Both the position numbers and the translations under genes were made by a program. Positions 6,701 to 30,000 of a DNA stretch of 64,000 bases are shown here, piece by piece. The first letter of the stretch is position 1. Each line of letters opens with the position of its first letter. The stretch is taken from NCBI GenBank assembly GCA_963922205.1, contig CAWUHX010000247.1:186001-250000 (forward strand). Reading direction: 5' to 3'. The DNA comes from Romanomermis culicivorax. Lineage: Eukaryota; Nematoda; Enoplea; Mermithida; Mermithidae. The notes beneath the pieces were generated by a model that worked only from the letters and a program-made list of their open reading frames with translations, ran no database searches and was not told where the DNA came from.

Positions 6701-8130
6701 TCTCAAAAATGTAATTTACACCAAATCTCAAGAATTAAATTTACACAATAACTAATAAATCTGATTTACACTACATTTGAAAAGGATTATTCACGCTATA
6801 TTCAGAAAACTAATTTACACTATGTCTCAAAAATTTAATTTACACCACATTTGCATATTTTACAGTTTCGGATATGGTACGCGGCGTGGGCTATTTACAA
6901 TGCGGTGTAATGCGCCTAATTTTTCTATTCCAAAAAACCGAAACCCTAAAAGTCACCCCTAAACAATGTATGCTGCAAATTTATTCCACGTTAATGATGT
7001 ACGGTCAACAGGCTTCGGCCACTATGGTCATGATATTGGCCATGGACAGATTTTTCGCCGTATGTTTCTTCAATCAATATCGGAATTGGGGATCGAGGTT
7101 AATTAATTAATTTTTTTAATATTAATTAATTAATTTTGATTTATTAAACTAATGAACTACTTTGTTTAGGTATTCATTAGTTATGATAGCGCTTACTAAT
7201 GTAATATGCGCCTCGACTACGGCAGCCGGTTGGATCATGGCCTTTTGCTTTATGCCGAGCGTGCTGATACCGCAAGTGAGCCGTCCTAAGCCCAAGCCTA
7301 AGCCTAAGCCTAACCCTAAGCCCAAGCCTAAGCCTAAGCCTAAACCTAAGCCCAAGCCTAAGCCTAAGCCTAAGCCTAAGCCTAAGCCCAAGCCTAAGCC
7401 TAAGCCCAAGCCTAAGCCTAAGCCTAAGGCACTCCAGGCTTGAACCCGCAACCTTGCTGGCATTCACTAAGCTAGCCTCGCCAGGGCAAGGATGAACATC
7501 TCGAACACGTCAATCAAAATTTTTACTCGTCATTAATTAGGCATCTAATTAACATTACGTAATTTAATTAATTAAATTTTCCAGGTATGTCGTATCGACG
7601 CCGCTACCTCCTATTCCTACTACGTGACGCAAATGGGCAGCCGCTTCTTCCCCGGCCCGTTGAGCGCCCTTTTCTACATGTCGACATTCGCCGTCATTTT
7701 CCGCATGCGAGCCGGCGGCGCGGCGGCGAGCAACGCCGTCGGCTTGCGGCGTCAAATTCGAATGACGAAAAGCGTATCGATCATCATGTTGAACACTTTC
7801 CTATTCTCCAGCGTACCGTTCGGTTGGGCTTTTTTGAGTTTGACGACCAACGGTTCGACGACGTCGACGTTCGACGCAGCGTCCCCGTTTTTCTATACGC
7901 TTTCGTTGTTAAGCGCGGCGACCAATATTTTAGTCTATTGCGCAAAGTACGAAAAATTTCGTAACGTAATGTTACGCCAGTTTTCGTGGTGTACGGCGGG
8001 TTGCCGTCGTCTCAACGACAAAAGTTCGGTGACGACGATAGCTAGCGGCAAACCAATTTTCAATCGAAGTACGCTACCAAATACTGTCGGTTCGATGAGT
8101 AATAATAAAGCAAATAATAGCGTACTTTGA
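3742..8130 (+). CDS. srsx-like rhodopsin-family GPCR, four exons, complete
   Basis: Exons are 3742-3940, 6866-7097, 7170-7275 and 7585-8130. All introns are GT/AG and the phases agree, giving a 360-residue seven-transmembrane receptor. Exon 1 encodes a short N-terminus with an NAS glycosylation site at residue 13 and TM1. The first junction creates the TM2 motif LAGLAISD. TM3 follows Cys101 and ends in Asp-Arg-Phe (127-129), a DRY variant. Cys181 in extracellular loop 2 is the expected disulphide partner. TM7 carries [13 protein letters not shown], a variant of NPxxY. The overall pattern fits the nematode srsx chemoreceptor/peptide-receptor group by family knowledge; the ligand is unknown. 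Intron 1 (2.9 kb) is pure satellite and intron 3 contains telomere-type repeat. The start is the first in-frame ATG before a full TM1. Confidence 0.9.
4040..6860. repeat. short-unit satellite filling GPCR intron 1
   Basis: About 2.8 kb of degenerate units built on AAAAATCTAATTTACACCAT followed by ATCTC, roughly 25 bases each. They are organised into higher-order blocks that also contain ACTGTAAGGTTACTGTAA and AATGATAAAATCCCTGATCA. It occupies nearly all of the first intron (3941-6865). Open frames in it are short and repetitive and are not genes. Confidence 0.85.
7289..7428. repeat. interstitial nematode telomere-type repeat (GCCTAA)n
   Basis: About 140 bases of near-perfect CCTAAG/GCCTAA hexamers with scattered variants (CCCAAG, CCTAAC). 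The complement is TTAGGC, the nematode telomeric unit. It starts about 13 bases after the donor GTGAGC of GPCR exon 3, inside intron 3. The Pro-Lys and Leu-Gly open frames across it are artefacts of the hexamer. Confidence 0.9.
7433..7497 (-). repeat. tRNA-derived repeat fragment
   Basis: On the minus strand, GGCTAGCTTAGTGA resembles a Pol III A box and GGGTTCAAGCC a B box. They are only about 16 bases apart, so there is no room for an anticodon arm. I read it as a deleted tRNA pseudogene or SINE head next to the telomeric tract. Confidence 0.35.
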
Positions 8131-14200: not shown

Positions 14201-17200
14201 AAAATTACACTCCCCATTAAAATAGTTATGTGTGTACTTTACACTAAAAAACACTATGTTTGAACAATTTACACTCATCAAAAATTTTCTGAAACTCGTT
14301 TAAAAAACAAACGTTTACACGAATCGTGCAACACAACTTCACTTTACACTCAGCATTGAAATCGTTGGGTCTGTATTTTACTCTCGGAAAACACTCTGTT
14401 TGAACACTTTACACTCATCAAAAATCTTGAGAAATTTCATTATTAAGCAAATGTTTGCAATACTTGAGGAGGATAACTTCACCTTACACTCACCATTGAA
14501 ATAGTTCGGTGTGCACTCTACACTGGAGAAAATTCTATTTCAACACTTTACACTCTCCAACATTCTTTTAAAACTCCATTACTCAGCAAATGTTTACAAC
14601 ACTCCAGGAAGATAACTTCCTTTTACACTCACCATTAAAATCGTTCTGTCTACACTTTACGCTGGCAATCAACAGAAAAATAAACAAGAAGTTCATTTTT
14701 TCAAAAAAATAAAAATAATTAGATGTTCGATATCCCAACGTTTTTATAATAAATAAAGCAGAAAAAAATTCGGAATAATAAAAAAATTTTTTTAATCATT
14801 ATTCATCGACGATTAACATTAAACTATTGGAATTATTCATCAAGAATAAATTCCTTTTTAATAAATACGAATCTTGATTTATAAAATCTCCCGATTCCAA
14901 ACTAGATTCTAAATTTTGATTGGCGTGAAATTTTCGAAAATTGTCCTCCTCTTGTTCTTTGATGGTCGACAATTGGTGATTTAGTTTACATTTTTTGGGC
15001 CAAAAATCGTCATTGTTGTTTTTGTTGTAAACTAGGCTTAAATCGACGCCCATTTTTCGAAAATTCGGGGCGCATTTCTTTTTCGGGGGAAATTTTCTAT
15101 TCAATTTTTTGCCTCGGCCGAAAAATCGACTTTTAGCGGCGGTTGCGCGACGTTTTCCTGCGAGAGAAAAAATAGTTTACACAAAGTTTACATTGTAGAA
15201 AAGTTTTCTCGGTTCAATTCATGTTCAGCTCGTTTTACATAAACATTCAATGATACCACCTTACACAGCACTATTTTACACATTTTGAACTATTTTACTA
15301 TAAACAAGCCACTTTACTACTTGAAAGTACTTCACTACTTTAAACTTATTACTTTACACTCTATTTTTTAAAACTAATTCATTAGGTTAAACAAGTTTAT
15401 TAGTTTAAACTACTTCATTACTTTAAACTACTTCATTACTTTAAACTACTTCATTACTTTAAACTACTTCATTACTTTAAACTACTTCATTACTTTAAAC
15501 TGTTATAATACTTTAAACTAGTTCAAATTACTTTACTACATTAATATTTTAAACTACCTTGAACAATTTTTTCCCTATTTTGAACTATATTTTATTACTT
15601 TAATAATTTTGACTACTTTAATGTTTTGAAGTTTAAACTCATTTTCTACCTCGATACTTTACACTTTTTTACTACCAAGTTCTTCTTTGAACTACTTCAC
15701 TTATGTGAACAAACTGTACAATTTTTAATTTTTTACCATCTTTCCACTTTGAACAACTTTACAACCCTGAATACTTCGTACTGGTACGTTCAACTACTTT
15801 CCAACTTTGAACTACTTCACCACTTTAAACTACTTTACTTCTGCAAACGACTTTACTACTTCACTACTGTAAACTACTTTACTACTTTACTACTTTACAC
15901 TAATTTACAACTTTTAACTACTATACTACTTTAAACAACTCCATTTTACTACTTTAAAGTACTTCACTACTTTAAACTACTCTTCTTTACTACTTTAAAC
16001 TACTCTACTTTACTACTTTAAATTACTCTACTTTACTACTTTAAATTACTCTACTTTACCACTTTAAACTACTCTACTTTACCACTTTAAACTACTCCAC
16101 TTTACCACTTTAAACTACTTCACTACTTAAACTACTCTACTTCACTATTTTAAGCCATTTTGCTACTTTAAGCTAGTTCAGTTTACTACTTTAAAGTACT
16201 TTACTTTACCACTTCAGACTGCCTTACATTATTACTTTAAACTATTTTACTTCACTACTTAAAGCTATTTAAGCTACTTTACTTCACTACTTTAAACTAT
16301 TTGACTGAATTTATGGTTCAAACTAAATTATTAAGTTTATACTCTAAACTACTTTACTACCTCGATTACTTTGAACTGTATTAATAGCTTTATTTTTCAA
16401 ACCACTTTACGCCTTTGAACTAGCTCACTACTATAAACTTCTCTACTACTTTAAACCACTTTACTACGTCAACTTTATTGAAAATTTTAAACTACTTTAC
16501 TACTTCAAAATATTTTACTACCATGAACCAATTTACTTCTTTGAGCTACTTTAGTACTTTAAACAACTATACTACTTCAAGCTACTCTAAACTATTCCAA
16601 GCTCCTCTAAACAACTACAAAACTTCACACTGCTTCAGGCCATTACACTACTTTACACTACTTTAAGCTACTCTAGTACTTGGAAACTACCCCAGTTGTT
16701 TGCACTACTTTGAACTGACATCGTATTCTACACTTCTTAAACGCATTCTAGCACTTTACATTATATTATACTACTTTAGTAGTTTACACTACTTCAAACT
16801 AGTCTACTACTTTACTCTGTTTTAAACCATTATAGTACTTGTCACTACTTTAAACTACTCTTGCAATTTACACTAACTCGGACCATACACGCACATAGGG
16901 GGTAGGGGGGGGGGTAAACCCCCATACCAGAGACCCTGGCCACCCCCACCTGGTCCAAAAAATCGTCAAACACCCCCCTTTTCGAGACCACTTTTTTGAT
17001 GATTTTTGTGCATATTTTGTATGAAAAACAAGCTTTCAGAACATTTTTTTGTTTTTTGCTGCCCGACCACCCCTCCCCGCTGAATAAAAAGTCCAAGGAC
17101 CCTCCCCCTGGAAAATTCTTGCTGTGCATGTCCGACTCAGACCGCACTAGTACTTCACGCTACCTCAAGCCACTCCAGTACTTTACACTACTGTGAACTA

Positions 17201-18731
17201 CCCTGTATTTTACACTATTGTAAACTACTCTGATACTTTTAACTTATACTACTTTTGTACCTTGCAATACTTTAAACTAATACACAGCTTTACACCACTT
17301 TTCTAATTCACCCAACTTTACAATTTTGTAAACTTTACTACTTTAAAAATTTTGAAAAGTGTAAAGTTCCGTACTTCTCCGTTCGAGCAGATTGTACCAA
17401 AATCCGCTAACTTTCGCCCACGAAGAATTAGGCGAAACTTGACGACGCAATTTTCGTCGAATTTCGTCCGGCTCGATATCATCCGTATCTGGTTCGATAT
17501 TTAAATTTTGTTCGGGTACATATTCGAAAATTGTAGCCGGCGAGTTTTCATCTACGAGTAGAAAGAAAAACGAGAGCTTTACACTCTGTGCACACTGAAT
17601 TTTACACTCTGTTTACAGTGAACTTTACACTCTGTTTACACTGAACTTTACACTCTGTTTACATTGAACTTTACACTTTGTTCACACTGAGTTACACACT
17701 GGTTACACTGAACTTTACACTCTGTTTACATTGAGTGTAAAGCATGGAAAATTTAGAGTGTAAACTTACCGTCAATCTTCCAATTATCTAAACCGTAAAT
17801 TAGCGGATGGGTGATTAAAATGGTCGAATTGAAAATCAACGATATACCGATCAAATAGTCGTTTAAATCTAGTTTACACAATTTGAAAAAAATTAAAATT
17901 GTTACACCTGCCCAGGATAGAAAATGGCCGAATAAAATTTGCATAAATTTGACCAACAATCCCGAACGATCGTAAAATGTAAAGATTAAACGACGAGCTC
18001 GACATTCTAGGAAATATTGTTGGCGATTCGACGAGCCCAGCTTTACATTTTTTAAAACTTTCTTTTGTATAACGATAATACGTAAAATTTGCGTGTAATA
18101 ATACACGAGTGTAAAGTAGGGGCATACGACGAAGCATAGGAAATAGAGTGTAAAGTAGTAGAAGTAATCCGACGACCAAATTTGCCAGTAGTTTAAAGGC
18201 GATGTAAAGTCGTCATTGTAAAGTTGAAATTTTTTAATGGAAAAATGTGGGGGGCACGAAGCTGTTGTTAAAAGTAGAGTAACCAAAAGTGTAAACAAGA
18301 AACAAGATCGTTTATTGAAACGTTTCCGGTATCGTAAAGGCCTAGCTATGGCGTAAAACCTGTTGATGAAAAGTTGTGTAAATTTGGTTTAAACTACTTA
18401 AATTGTAAACTAACCTTTCCAAGGATATGATACCCGATGTAAAGCTGCAGCAAGCCAAACACGAAATATGTACGAATAAAGACCAAATATTTAAATTATA
18501 GAAAATTGGATGGTGTAAATCGACGACGTAAAACGCCGAAAATTTTACTATATTTAAAATGACGTCGAAAAAACACCACAAACAAGACCAAAAAACGAAA
18601 ATGTCCAAATTTTGAAATGGCGTCAATTTGGCGATAAATTTTATTAAAACTAAAAAATTTAAAATCAAAGCCCAAAAAGTTTGGCTAATTTCTAAAAAAT
18701 TTAAAAAATATTCCACCGATTTGGGTAACAT
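11223..18731 (-). CDS. peptide-type rhodopsin GPCR, seven-exon form (521 aa)
   Basis: Minus-strand exons: 18731-18415, 18359-17770, 17551-17375, 15157-14990, 11679-11578, 11486-11436 and 11383-11223. Lengths sum to 1,566 bases, divisible by three, with consistent phases throughout. TM1-TM3 lie in exon 1. The first junction joins LER to FYAIARPLRYRKRF, giving an ERF variant of the DRY box at residues 105-107 and a canonical intracellular loop 2. TM5-TM7 are in exon 2, with ITHPLIYG standing for NPxxY. The rest is an acidic then basic cytoplasmic tail: exon 3 begins DENSPATIFEYVPEQN, and exon 7 carries a similar EEEYSEQNPSADD. Large introns 3 and 4 are satellite. The start is the ATG just before TM1; TTG-initiated upstream codons exist but are unlikely. 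The receptor class looks peptidergic; the ligand is unknown. Confidence 0.82.
11690..14730. repeat. about 120-140-bp satellite in GPCR intron
   Basis: Tandem units contain ACTTTACACTCACCATTGAA, ATCGTTCTGTCTGCACTTTA, CACTGG, TTTGAACACTTTACACTC and CCATTACTAAGCAAATGTTT. Neighbouring ATCGTTCTGTC marks are spaced about 122-142 bases. The array fills intron 4 of the minus-strand GPCR gene. A run of twelve or more G residues interrupts it near 11980. Confidence 0.85.
14799..18731 (-). CDS. same GPCR, four-exon form with early stop (480 aa)
   Basis: If the GTAAAC donor at 14989 is not used, exon 4 reads through from 15157 to the TAA at 14799-14801. The tail is then LNHQLSTIKEQEEDN onward, ending in LMLIVDE. 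The total is 1,443 bases with intact phase. Both ends are open and coding-like, so this may be an alternative 3' end rather than an error. The exon 4 segment shared by both forms is very basic (FFGRGKKLNRKFPPKKK), a plausible membrane-proximal tail. Confidence 0.6.
15250..17345. repeat. ACTTTAAACTACTTC microsatellite-like array in GPCR intron
   Basis: Around 2 kb of units near 17-18 bases (TACTTTAAACTACTTCAT), best preserved at 15412-15500 and 15960-16140, filling intron 3 of the minus-strand GPCR. A dispersed repeat interrupts it at 16870-17135. Confidence 0.85.
16870..17135. repeat. G/C-run dispersed repeat inserted in satellite
   Basis: Contains G10-type and C-rich runs, then GTGCATATTTTGTATGAAAA, ACAAGCTT, and CCCTCCCC. 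A related segment is at 26470-26640. It interrupts the TTTAAACTACTT array and is therefore younger than it. Confidence 0.6.
17575..17745. repeat. TTTACACTCTGTTTACACTGAAC tandem array, GPCR intron 2
   Basis: About seven imperfect copies of a 22-23-base unit filling most of the 218-base intron 17552-17769. Confidence 0.8.
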
Positions 18732-18861
18732 TATAATTATACTTATAAAGGAAATTTTTCGCGCAACCCCCGCGAACAACTGCTTAGAGGGCTTATATAT
18801 AACATAACATTATAACATAGGCAAAAAGTTTCAAATAATTATATTTCATAAATTTTTTTCC

Positions 18862-19245
18862 TCAACCGAACCTCAAAATTGTGTCTTGCGACGAAGAAGC
18901 GTAGGGTGCGGCGGCGGCTTGTCGACCATTGCCGCTGGCCATATACGGGTACCAAAAGCCGCTAAACCGTTTGGCGGCTGGGTTCAAAAATGGCGTCGAC
19001 ATTGGCCCCGCGGCATTGTACTCCACCATCCACAACACCGGCCCCGGAGCCAAATCTTGACCTTGAGGCGGCGTTTGACCAACGGCGCCCGGTGGTGATG
19101 GCTGCAGCGAACGTCTCAACAGCGTTCCTCTGGTCAACGAGAACATGGGCGCCGGGGCCACTGACGCTTCGATCAAAAAAATCAAACATAAGAAAGTATG
19201 CATAATTGAACGCTTCAATTCCCACACAAATGAAAATTCTAACAT
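18862..19245 (-). CDS. RFamide-like neuropeptide precursor, single exon (127 aa)
   Basis: Starts ATG at 19245 and ends TGA at 18864-18862. A signal peptide spans residues 1-30, with hydrophobic core HTFLCLIFLI (16-25) and a likely cut after Ser-Val-Ala. The mature part opens near SLTRGTLLRR (36-45, dibasic end). A second dibasic site KR (92-93) releases FSGFWYPYMASGN followed by Gly-Arg, an amidation-plus-cleavage signal. The last peptide, QAAAAPYASSSQDTILRFG, ends at the stop codon with RFG, so it would give a C-terminal RF-amide, possibly with pyroglutamate in front. A TATATA-like stretch lies upstream near 19265. It is transcribed toward the GPCR gene, whose ATG is 130 bases beyond the stop. 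Codon use matches the confirmed genes nearby. Family assignment rests on architecture and the RFG end; I do not recognise a named orthologue. Confidence 0.68.
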   Translation of the reverse strand: MLEFSFVWELKRSIMHTFLCLIFLIEASVAPAPMFSLTRGTLLRRSLQPSPPGAVGQTPPQGQDLAPGPVLWMVEYNAAGPMSTPFLNPAAKRFSGFWYPYMASGNGRQAAAAPYASSSQDTILRFG

Positions 19246-19912
19246 TTTCTTGGTGATATAAACGCGCTATATAAAAAGGTTAATAACCCCGGCTGAAATT
19301 AAAAATCGTAAATTTAGCTTAAATGGAAAAATTTTCAATCTTACCTTTTTGATGTGATTGATGATGGTCTTTTTAAAATTAAAGCGCTTTAAGATGTAGG
19401 TTTTGACGTGAAAATCGTTCATTTATTGAAATTTAGCTCGTCGAGTAGTGATATAACATTTCGATGATGGCTTCGAATTCTGGTAAGTAAGGATTCCGCA
19501 TGCGCATTAGATGTTTTTAGGCATCAAATTATGATCTAGACAAGCTTAAAAATTGCCTTTTGATACATCAAGCGAACTATGGCTTCCTATGATTGGCATG
19601 TAAAAAATTGGCAACAATCCTGAAAAAAACTGAGTTCAATTTTCCCCCATTTCATAATCAATTTCTAGCATCAAAATTGGCAACTCTCGGCGCAATCATC
19701 ATAAGATAAGGAACAATTGCTGATCAAATTTCCAGAGGATCTGCCATAGTCGCTTAATATAATGTAAAATCAGTAGCCATCATGCATCAAAAATCCTAGG
19801 ATTTTTACAAGCTGAGACCACGACTAGTCACATTAGCTTCCGATGAAGCAAGAAAGTCAACCCAAATTGCTAAACCTTCACTCACTTACCAAAGCTTCCT
19901 GAAACACAAAGC

Positions 19913-21222: not shown

Positions 21223-21401
21223 GTAATGGGTAAACGCGTTGCCATCGTAACCATCGCCAAACACTGTTTGAAAAATAATGCTCGACCGGGATTCGAACCC
21301 AGGTCTCTGTGACTATAGTGCAGCGTTCTTCCGATTGAACTACTGAGCCAGTGTTGGGATTGTTACGAAGGGGTGATGTACGGCTGTGCAACACGTGACA
21401 T
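21223..21401 (-). repeat. tRNA-derived repeat, copy 1
   Basis: The minus strand of 21281-21350 holds A box TGGCTCAGTAGTTCAATCGG, anticodon-like CTATAGT, and a T-arm with loop TTCGAAT. The acceptor ends do not pair, so this is a tRNA-derived element rather than a working tRNA. The same block repeats at 21494. Confidence 0.65.
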
Positions 21402-21493
21402 TCCCCCCCTTGAAAGAAGGACGACCTCGTCCGTTTAAGATGCAGGTTCTGCAGCCCACCAATGTGGGACCAATCCAAGCCTCGCCATGACAT

Positions 21494-21671
21494 GTAATGG
21501 GTAAACGCGTTGCCATCGTAACCATCGCCAAACACTGTTCGAAAAATAATGCTCAACCGGGATTCGAACCCGGGTCTCTGTGACTATAGTGCAGCGTTCT
21601 TCTGATTGAACTACTGAGCCAGTGTTGGGATTGTTACGAAGGGGTGATGTACGGCCGTGCGACACGTGACA
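21494..21671 (-). repeat. tRNA-derived repeat, copy 2
   Basis: Near-identical to copy 1, 271 bases downstream and in the same orientation. The tRNA-like part is 21552-21621, with a perfect T stem CCGGG/CCCGG. Both copies end in GTACGGC(T/C)GTGC and ACACGTGACA. Confidence 0.65.
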
Positions 21672-22032
21672 ATAGAAGTCGAATTTTACAGGTTGGAGCT
21701 TCAGCGTACTCATTACATGGAAGTCAGATTTTACATGTTGAAGCCTTGGGTGTACCTTCTACACCCCTCTATCGCCCCACATGCTAAATGAAATTTAGAT
21801 TGTATTGCATCATGGACTATACTTTCTAAACCCCTGTATGGCCGCATATGTAATACCAATGCGAATTGAATGAATAGTTGACCAAAGGCCCAACTATTTA
21901 TACACACAAAACGACGATCACATGAAATTACATAGTTCGCCATGGGAGCCTGATGTGCACGTGCAAACACATCAGTTGTGTACCCCTGTTGAGGCGACCT
22001 GTTCCCGCTACTTGGGGCTTCAGTAAAAGTTA

Positions 22033-22106
22033 GGCTCGGTCTGGGAATTGAACCCAGGACCTTGCGGCTACCATCCCCACGCTCTAACCAACTGAGCCGA
22101 CCGAGC
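22033..22106 (-). tRNA. tRNA-like cloverleaf, anticodon GGT (Thr) or pseudogene
   Basis: The minus strand gives a 74-base cloverleaf: acceptor GCTCGGT pairs perfectly with ACCGAGC, D stem GCTC/GAGC, T stem CTGGG/CCCAG with loop TTCAATT, variable AGGTC. The anticodon loop ATGGTAG places GGT at 34-36, reading Thr codons, but the anticodon stem TGGGG/CCGCA has one G-G mismatch. The D-arm region resembles eukaryotic tRNA-Ile. GGT is rare in eukaryotic tRNA-Thr sets (AGT is usual), so a repeat-derived pseudogene is quite possible. Confidence 0.55.
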
Positions 22107-27030: not shown

Positions 27031-30000
27031 TCAGCAAGCCACGTCGCCGCTGCTGCTCGACGTGGAACAATCGTTGCTGCTAGCGCTACCATCCGCGCTA
27101 CTTTGCGGTTCGGATTTGACTACGACCAAATTGGTCCGACACGTTGGTTCACCGCCGCCCGACGCCTGGTCCCGTCGTTCGACCGACAAATCGGCGAATT
27201 GACGCCGCAACCGGGCGCTTTGTACGTATTGATTTTGGGTCAAAAAAGCCGGCGCCCAATCGACCGTCGACCAATAACGTTGTTGAATTTGGCAAACGCG
27301 TTTCAACGTCCGTCGGGCGCTATCGTTGGCCAGACGGTCGAACGAGGCGGCGAATTGACGCTCGGCGTCATCGTCGTCGGACGTCGTCGCCGCAGCCGCA
27401 GTTGTGGGACATTGCAGCGTCAATAGAGCGCGTACGCAACATTCGGCTGCGTCGCTTATCGCAGCTAAATTGTAACCGCCTTCTAGGATAAGGACGACCG
27501 GGTAACGAGCGGCTAGCCGGGCCGTCATCCAACCGAACATTTGACTGGATAGATTGTAGCCGCCTATATGAAATGAAAAGGAAAAATTTGGCCACGCCTA
27601 CTATCGATCGATATTTTTTTCTTTCCCGTATAGTTGATGTTCCAGAAATGAATTGAATTTCAAGAATGATGAAGATAAGAGTTATATGATAATTTCGACA
27701 TCTGTTGATAGATCATAGTGAATTCTATAAAAAAATTTTACTCGAAAGATTGTATCTTCCTTTTTGATGAAATTATAAATGCTTAAATAAATCTTTTCTC
27801 CCGTAAACATGATGTTTCAAAAATGAGTTATTTTCGAAAAAATGATCATAGGGGTACTGTAAAAGTCATACTGATGCAAATGTGATAAATTTTGTAGTAA
27901 ACGACAGATTTAGAGAAATTGTATCCAAAAATATATTTTAAAACGCTATATCTTCATTTTTCATTCACTTGTAAGGGTTTAAACTGATTTCTCTTCCCGT
28001 CAAGATGATATTTCAAGAATATTGTAAGGAGAATGAAAATTTCTGTCACATCCATAACAATTAACAAAATGTGATAAATTTAATATCAATCGATAGATCT
28101 GAACGAATCGTATCGAATAGTATCACTTTAAAACGCTATAACCTGCATTTCTGATCGAGTTCTAAAGGTTTAAAGTGATTTATTTTCAAAAATATTGTAA
28201 GAAAAATAAAAATTTCAAACAGGTCTACAATAATGATCCAAATGTGGAAATTTTGATATCAATCGATAGAGCTCAACAGAATCTATCCAGTAGTATGCTT
28301 TAAAATGCTATATCCTTTTTTACAGAGTTGTGAAGGTTTAAAGTAATTTATTCCCCGTCAAGATTATGTTTCAAAAATATTGTGAGAAAAACAAAAATTT
28401 CAACGACGTCAATAATAATGATCAGAATGTAAAAAATTTGATATCAATCGATAGATTTCGTCAAGTCCTATCAGATAATACATTTTAAAATTTGATATTT
28501 TCATTTCAAACGGAGTTGTTAGGGTTTGACGTGATTTGTTCTTCCCTAATTATGACAGTAACTTTCAATCAGTTAAACTAGTTCAATTGTGACAGGTTTG
28601 ATATCAATTGATAGATATTACTCAAATCTATCAATGAGCATAATATGTTTCATGTTTGACGGAAGAAATTTATTCTCCCGTAAAGATGATGTTTCAGAAA
28701 TGAATCATATTTTAAACCGATGCGAATTTGATATAAATCGATAGCCCAGCACGTGTGCTCTATAAAAATATGATTTATAACGTTGTATCTTCATTTTTGA
28801 TAGAGTTATAGCGACTCAAAATGTTTTTTTGACCCGTCAAGATTATGTTTCAAAAATGGATTAAAGTCAATCTAATATCAATTTGTAGCACTTTTCGAGC
28901 ACAATCCAAAAATCCTATTCCAAAAATTGCATCCTTATTCTCCAAGGAAATCAACTCACCGACGGCGTTCCAATGGCCGGCGGCGGCGTCGAAACCGCAA
29001 GAAACAAGAATTAAATCGGGTCGAAATTGGTCCAAAACGGGTTCGACGACGCAACGCCAAGCGGCCAAATATTCGGCGTCGCCCATCGCTTCGCCGCTCC
29101 ACGGAATGTTCACCGTAAAGCCCCGGCCTTCGTTTTTACCCGTCTAGAAAAAAATGTTGAATAGAGATTGGGGAAAAACTTTTTTTAATCAATAAAAATT
29201 TAAAATTTGACGCAGAAAATGAGCTTTTTTTGGTTAAAAATTTAATTTCAGGAAATTTTGGAGATTTTAGTACAATTTATAGTGCTAAATTTTGTATTAT
29301 TCTGCAAAAATGAATTTTTATACTAAAAATTTAAATTGGCAAAAATCACTTCAATCGATAGATCTCGACCAGATCTATCAAATAATATACTCCAAAACGC
29401 TATATCTCAATTTTTGACTGAGTTTTGAGAGCTCGAAATGATATCTTCTCCCGTCAAGATGATATTTCAAATATGAGTTATATGAATGAATAAGAAAAAC
29501 TAACATTGATCAAGATGTGGGAAGTTTTATAGCAATCGATAGATCTCGACGTATTCTATTCAAAAATATCATTTAAAAAACTGTAGCTCAATTTTTAATG
29601 GAGTTATAGGTGTTTAAACACAGTTTTTCTCCCGTAGAGATTATGTTTTAAAATTGAATTAAGAATAAAAGAGCAATATAACTGTATTGATATTCAATTG
29701 TGACAAATTTTATATCAATCGATAGATATCGACGAAATCTATTAAAAATATCATTAAAAAAAACTGTAGCTCAATTTTTGATGGAGTTATATGTGTTTAA
29801 ACATAGTTTTTCTCCCGTAAAGATGATGTTTCGAAATTAAATTGATGGAGATTAAATAAACAGCAATCAAACTCTATTGATATCCAATTGAGACAAAATT
29901 TACATCAATCGATAGATCTCGACGAATTCTACTCGAAAATATAATTTGAAAAATTGCAGATCAATTTTTGATGGAGTTATATGTGTTTAAACATAGTTTT

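Follow-up and report, generated by a model that had tools for sequence, protein, structure and literature searches.

The mermithid Romanomermis culicivorax, a clade I nematode, is a parasite of mosquito larvae. We analysed a 64,000-nucleotide stretch of its genome (contig C247, positions 186001-250000; hereafter the window, whose positions are used for all coordinates given without a contig) and focused on a neuropeptide-type precursor frame and the G protein-coupled receptor (GPCR) gene that follows it on the minus strand. We consider it fairly probable that these are two separate tandem genes, one for a secreted two-peptide precursor and one for a divergent rhodopsin-class (class A) GPCR, most likely with a promoter each. 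Each gene would have a TATA-type promoter of its own. The precursor would be cleaved by signal peptidase and prohormone convertase, at RR, KR and GR, and subsequent amidation would yield FSGFWYPYMASGN-amide and a second peptide, QAAAAPYASSSQDTILRF-amide, of RFamide or FMRFamide-like peptide (FLP) type. The second gene would encode a divergent rhodopsin-class receptor for which no paralogue was found in the genome. The assembly searched comprised 359,112,060 bases in 595 contigs. The v2 assembly of the species is described as 359.1 Mb in 595 scaffolds (PMC10879605).

The precursor frame (18862..19245, minus strand) runs from an ATG at 19245 to a TGA at 18862 and holds 127 codons, or 113 when counted from the second methionine (19203). 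The first-pass annotation had described a 127-residue frame with dibasic sites, a GR after FSGFWYPYMASGN and ILRFG at the stop codon, and all of these are present. The dibasic RR occupies residues 44-45 and KR residues 92-93 (18967..18972), the latter directly ahead of predicted peptide 1, FSGFWYPYMASGN-amide (18928..18966), which is bounded on its other side by GR (residues 107-108; 18922..18927), an amidation-donor glycine combined with a single-arginine cleavage site. Predicted peptide 2, QAAAAPYASSSQDTILRF-amide (18868..18921), with a possible pyroglutamate start, is followed by an amidation glycine and the TGA stop (18862..18867). A signal peptide had also been claimed. Hydropathy windows above 1.8 span residues 14-30, and a putative signal peptide, MHTFLCLIFLIEASVA (residues 15-30; 19156..19203), can be read from the second methionine, the only start from which it looks usual; its presumed cleavage point after SVA has a proline at +1, which makes cleavage there unlikely. 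From these features we infer secretion, processing and amidation of the product.

A genome-wide search returned a second copy of the precursor locus at C247:395482-395862, about 190 kb away and about 95% identical. When the window was aligned with C247:370001-450000, the scope of this comparison, positions 1-37155 mostly aligned to C247:378166-447845 in long pieces of 91-99% identity with indels between them, one of about 34 kb. The second copy is probably the other haplotype, left unpurged and joined into the same scaffold, since the assembly paper acknowledges that some artefactual duplications persist (PMC10879605); a segmental duplication is possible. Under either origin, the second copy is usable as a test of coding constraint.

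The two copies of the precursor differ by eight substitutions, six synonymous and two non-synonymous, against a neutral expectation of 76% non-synonymous by site numbers (binomial P = 0.003). Both replacements, P60L and L87S, fall within the spacer. No change at all was seen over the last 36 codons, where both peptides are encoded, so that the KR site, the two predicted peptides and the ILRFG-TGA end are the same in the second copy. The synonymous excess, the confinement of replacements to the spacer and the unchanged peptides show constraint on the precursor, which is very probably real.

The amidation-type ends of the frame were also rare by count. An RFG end occurred in 1 of the 264 stop-to-stop frames that reach 60 amino acids within the window, namely the precursor frame itself, and an RFG end together with a dibasic...G[KR] unit appeared in 1 of 200,000 shuffles of precursor residues 31-127. 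As a positive control, the pattern LRFGKR was searched genome-wide and gave 122 matches, compared to 92 with the reversed pattern. Among 30 of these loci that were inspected, four belonged to one multi-copy FLP gene (C2:2648869-2648975, minus strand) with KNDFLRFGKR-type repeats and a last copy reading KNDFLRFG-stop, and five others were filter-passing frames with a single site; the genome may hold additional single-copy FLP genes. Thus, a clear FLP gene of the same species ends exactly like the precursor frame.

The alternative that the frame encodes some other small secreted or membrane-associated protein, in which KR, GR and the RFG end occur by coincidence, appears unlikely. It would account for each putative peptide being present in a single copy, for the long, proline-rich spacer, for a signal cleavage site that is less than ideal, and for the lack of a family in Pfam, the PDB sequences and NCBIfam (whose families are those of bacteria and archaea); but the presence of two amidation-type ends in so short a frame, as judged by the shuffles, and the RFG-stop of the multi-copy FLP gene argue against it. 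On sequence grounds, the frame is probably a real, lineage-specific gene for a secreted precursor of neuropeptide type.

Family searches placed the precursor in no described group. It had no match in Pfam or in NCBIfam (which covers bacteria and archaea), and its best PDB match (E = 1.1) was not convincing. Of seven genome-wide matches, two were the two copies themselves, and the other five (E > 1, none below 1.2) were taken as chance and rejected as paralogues. Strings of the TILRFamide, TILRFG, SGFWYPY and FWYPYM type went unmentioned in the main text of the literature searched. Compared to the LRFamide subgroup of nematode flp precursors (flp-1, -14, -18 and -21), the frame has in common a hydrophobic leader, basic cleavage sites and a C-terminal LRFG, and it shows both the basic sites that frame a peptide (KR 92-93 and GR 107-108) and the x-R-F-G that in flp precursors precedes basic residues or a stop. 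It differs from them in that it carries one RFamide copy only, and its other predicted amidated peptide is unrelated and terminates in SGN. FLP-18 ends in PGVLRFG and FLP-21 is GLGPRPLRFG, and the TILRF of the precursor fits neither. It is likewise unlike the PNFLRFG of FLP-1 (PMC11658156). With the nematode neuropeptide-like protein (NLP) precursors that contain mixed peptides, the frame shares a small secreted precursor and a non-RF amidated peptide. We know of no NLP that resembles FSGFWYPYMASGN-amide. Judged by its predicted features, this is a new RFamide-like precursor of a well-known kind.

The receptor gene lies next on the same strand and consists of three exons encoding 371 amino acids. 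Exon 1 (18415..18731) covers transmembrane helices (TM) 1 to 3 and ends within the ERF motif; single-sequence AlphaFold modelled it as three helices (mean predicted local distance difference test, 67.4; predicted template modelling score, 0.39). Exon 2 (17770..18359), delimited by splice sites, extends from the end of TM3 to TM7, and exon 3 (17343..17551) encodes the C-terminal tail. Exons 1 and 2 together matched Pfam 7tm_1 with 39.6 bits (cut-off 30.5; E = 5.5e-10), and the hydrophobic windows of the protein were grouped by us into seven segments. The receptor shares with class A GPCRs this profile match, the seven segments and the E-R pair at the end of TM3, but it reads ERF, HPLIY and FLSWAGV at the positions of DRY, NPxxY and CWxP, respectively. 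In the spliced protein, neither the beginning of TM3 nor extracellular loop 2 contained a cysteine; the disulfide cysteines at these positions, CWxP and NPxxY are common in class A GPCRs and not universal. A comparison with PDB sequences gave 44 matches up to E = 1, all weak and to aminergic receptors (best E = 0.0017), and the protein can therefore be called class A and little more. The profile match thus places the receptor as a divergent rhodopsin-class GPCR. The earlier description of a 'peptide-type GPCR' stands as regards a seven-TM gene of this class, while the peptide type is not established by the sequence.

No paralogue of the receptor was accepted among its eight genome matches at E ≤ 1. 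Four of these covered stretches of exon in the two copies. A match on contig C12 (E = 1.4e-4) fell between the exons of what looked by eye like a protein kinase gene, and was taken as chance. Two (E = 0.16 and 0.18) were other GPCR genes, both of which also appear in the genome-wide 7tm_1 list, and one further match had E = 0.63. The 7tm_1 list contains 147 scored matches out of 625 candidates; the receptor of the window is absent from it, presumably since its exons score too low when taken apart.

The receptor ATG (18731) follows the precursor stop at a distance of 130 bp, as the first-pass annotation had stated. This gap (18732..18861, minus strand), in which the second copy has four mismatches and 11 inserted bases, contains TATATAA (18793..18799), 68 bp before the receptor ATG; the sequence TATATAAG, previously noted as a possible promoter element of the receptor, is indeed present and begins at 18799. 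A TATATAG (19267..19273) lies 70 bp before the second methionine of the precursor. Both sites (19273 and 18799) are unchanged in the second copy, and no other TATATAR, nor any other TATAWAR, occurs on the minus strand between positions 17000 and 20000. By comparison, TATATAR occurred 60-80 bp upstream of 11 of the 2065 ATGs in the window and within 100 bp of 56 of them. Counted over the first ATG of each frame of 60 or more amino acids, the corresponding figures were 1 and 5 of 79. From these sites we infer independent transcription of the two genes.

The first-pass annotation had suggested that the two genes possibly form one polycistronic unit, and this part of it was weakened. A two-gene operon without any ligand-receptor relation, its polycistronic RNA being resolved by spliced-leader trans-splicing, is in our judgement rather improbable. 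Clade I nematodes do trans-splice, and 600 operons have been predicted in Trichuris muris (PMC7986045). The 130 bp from stop to ATG also comes close to the C. elegans intercistronic spacing of about 100 bp given in the same source, the two measures not being identical, but in T. muris, a clade I species, the median spacing of predicted operons is 517 bp (PMC7986045). The lack of an AATAAA in the gap would fit an operon as well. On the other side, the receptor has a TATATAR of its own, and the gap contained no TTNCAG and a single, weak YAG (18782), located in AAGCCCTCTAAGCAG after AAGCCCTCTAAG and lacking a T-rich tract, as judged against consensus only, the acceptors of this species being uncharacterised here. 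A search of the genome with the Rfam SL1 model gave no match and was uninformative, as the control genomes matched nothing either. A term search of PMC3890508 met no mention of operons, spliced leaders, GPCRs, neuropeptides or heterozygosity. With a TATATAR 68-70 bp before each likely start and no good acceptor in the gap, an operon is the less likely arrangement; separate promoters are likelier, without being proven.

Several observations weigh against the preferred reading of two tandem genes. The bracket of 60-80 bp was picked after the sites had been seen. The spacing of 70 bp requires a start at the second methionine, the distance being 28 bp from the first. With the looser pattern TATA[AT][AG], seven sites were found in the same 3 kb. 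No AATAAA occurs in the gap, the next one lying at 18645 within receptor exon 1, and the precursor transcript may therefore run into the receptor gene, which makes overlapping transcripts possible; the multi-copy FLP gene used as a control has an AATAAA in its 3' flank. A candidate 52-nt intron of the form GTAAG...TTTCAG (19293..19344, minus strand) lies upstream of the precursor ATG; transcription of this segment would mean a start further upstream, and the first TATATAR would then not serve as promoter. The 3' end of this candidate could alternatively be a trans-splice acceptor receiving a spliced leader. Finally, constraint on the receptor is not demonstrated because the changes between copies were too few: four non-synonymous, three synonymous and a changed stop codon that adds 16 residues in the second copy, for a total of 387 (P = 0.16).

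The 205 bp upstream of the precursor (19246-19450), which contain the candidate intron, are identical between the copies, and the adjoining 200-bp bins differ by about 1-5%. This stretch is possibly a promoter, or a 5' exon with the 52-nt intron, in which case splicing would create an upstream frame of 43 codons by hand reading.

The two genes had further been proposed as a possible linked ligand-receptor pair. In such a pair, the receptor would recognise one of the peptides and linkage would maintain co-inheritance or co-expression through dicistronic or overlapping transcripts. We regard a cognate pair as rather doubtful. Same-strand adjacency at 130 bp and the lack of AATAAA between the genes are consistent with it, as is the near-orphan status of both, the precursor having no other match below E = 1.2 and the receptor, its two copies apart, only the kinase-gene match below E = 0.1. 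The string SGFWY is common to peptide 1 and the receptor tail, a likeness that was noticed post hoc, and a shared pentapeptide arose in 365 of 20,000 shuffles; it is given little weight because it would lie in the cytosolic tail of the receptor, whereas a ligand binds at the other face of the membrane. Against a pair also stand the TATATAR of each gene and the receptor's PDB matches, which are aminergic and weak and leave a peptide type not established. The second copy adds nothing, since it belongs to a block of at least 37 kb and therefore provides no independent case of gene linkage.

We also estimated how often such neighbours would occur by chance. With assumed values (1% of genes as GPCRs, 50-100 neuropeptide genes and an even chance that two neighbours share a strand), arithmetic gave a chance expectation of about 0.25-0.5 neighbouring neuropeptide and GPCR genes per genome, a figure from assumed and not measured numbers. 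What chance would explain less readily is the tight spacing. A cognate pair, an attractive idea suggested by adjacency, is not needed to explain the locus. A stronger form, in which a mermithid-specific hormone, with two new amidated peptides, and its own divergent receptor lacking the usual class A disulfide arose or were maintained as a tightly linked cassette, co-inherited and partly co-transcribed, seems distinctly unlikely. Linked ligand and receptor genes are known from fungal pheromone-receptor loci and from plant SCR/SRK. The present locus has in common with them a peptide gene beside a receptor gene, but those systems are marked by allelic matching, and at this locus, compared in two copies, the pairing is putative. 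Among the papers listed by our literature searches, none was seen to report linked neuropeptide and receptor genes, and the passages of PMC6585902 that were consulted are silent on them too.

Two separate tandem genes thus remain the reading that we prefer, and other features were recorded around them. Less than 10 kb from the receptor, a second and different GPCR-like gene was read by eye on the plus strand (exons at 6867-8130), with LAMDRFFAV at the end of TM3 and a TM7 stretch; its frame at 7576-8130 had no Pfam match at E ≤ 0.1, and a CCTAAG hexamer array (7285-7428) lies inside the gene. On the minus strand, positions 21278-22106 hold two tRNA-Tyr-like genes (anticodon ATA) and one tRNA-Thr-like gene, which may be tRNA-derived repeats, and positions 27031-27597 encode the C-terminal part of a protein resembling a histone deacetylase (PF00850; 21.9 bits, under the cut-off).

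Clade 2 nematodes are reported to average 3.9 flp genes, with flp-1, -8, -14 and -18 spanning the phylum (PMC11658156). R. culicivorax, termed a clade 2 species in PMC8515059, is credited there with homologues of 49% of the C. elegans neuropeptide GPCRs, and a single FRPR is given for Romanomermis in PMC11315170; the two papers disagree in their receptor counts for R. culicivorax. If an RFamide-like gene exists beyond the named flp genes, lineage-specific peptides would seem to be missed by homology searches that start from C. elegans sequences. Should the neighbouring gene prove to encode its receptor, the locus would open a position-based route to deorphanising divergent receptors, and a linked cassette, if true, would provide an example from animals of a GPCR gene linked to that of its ligand.

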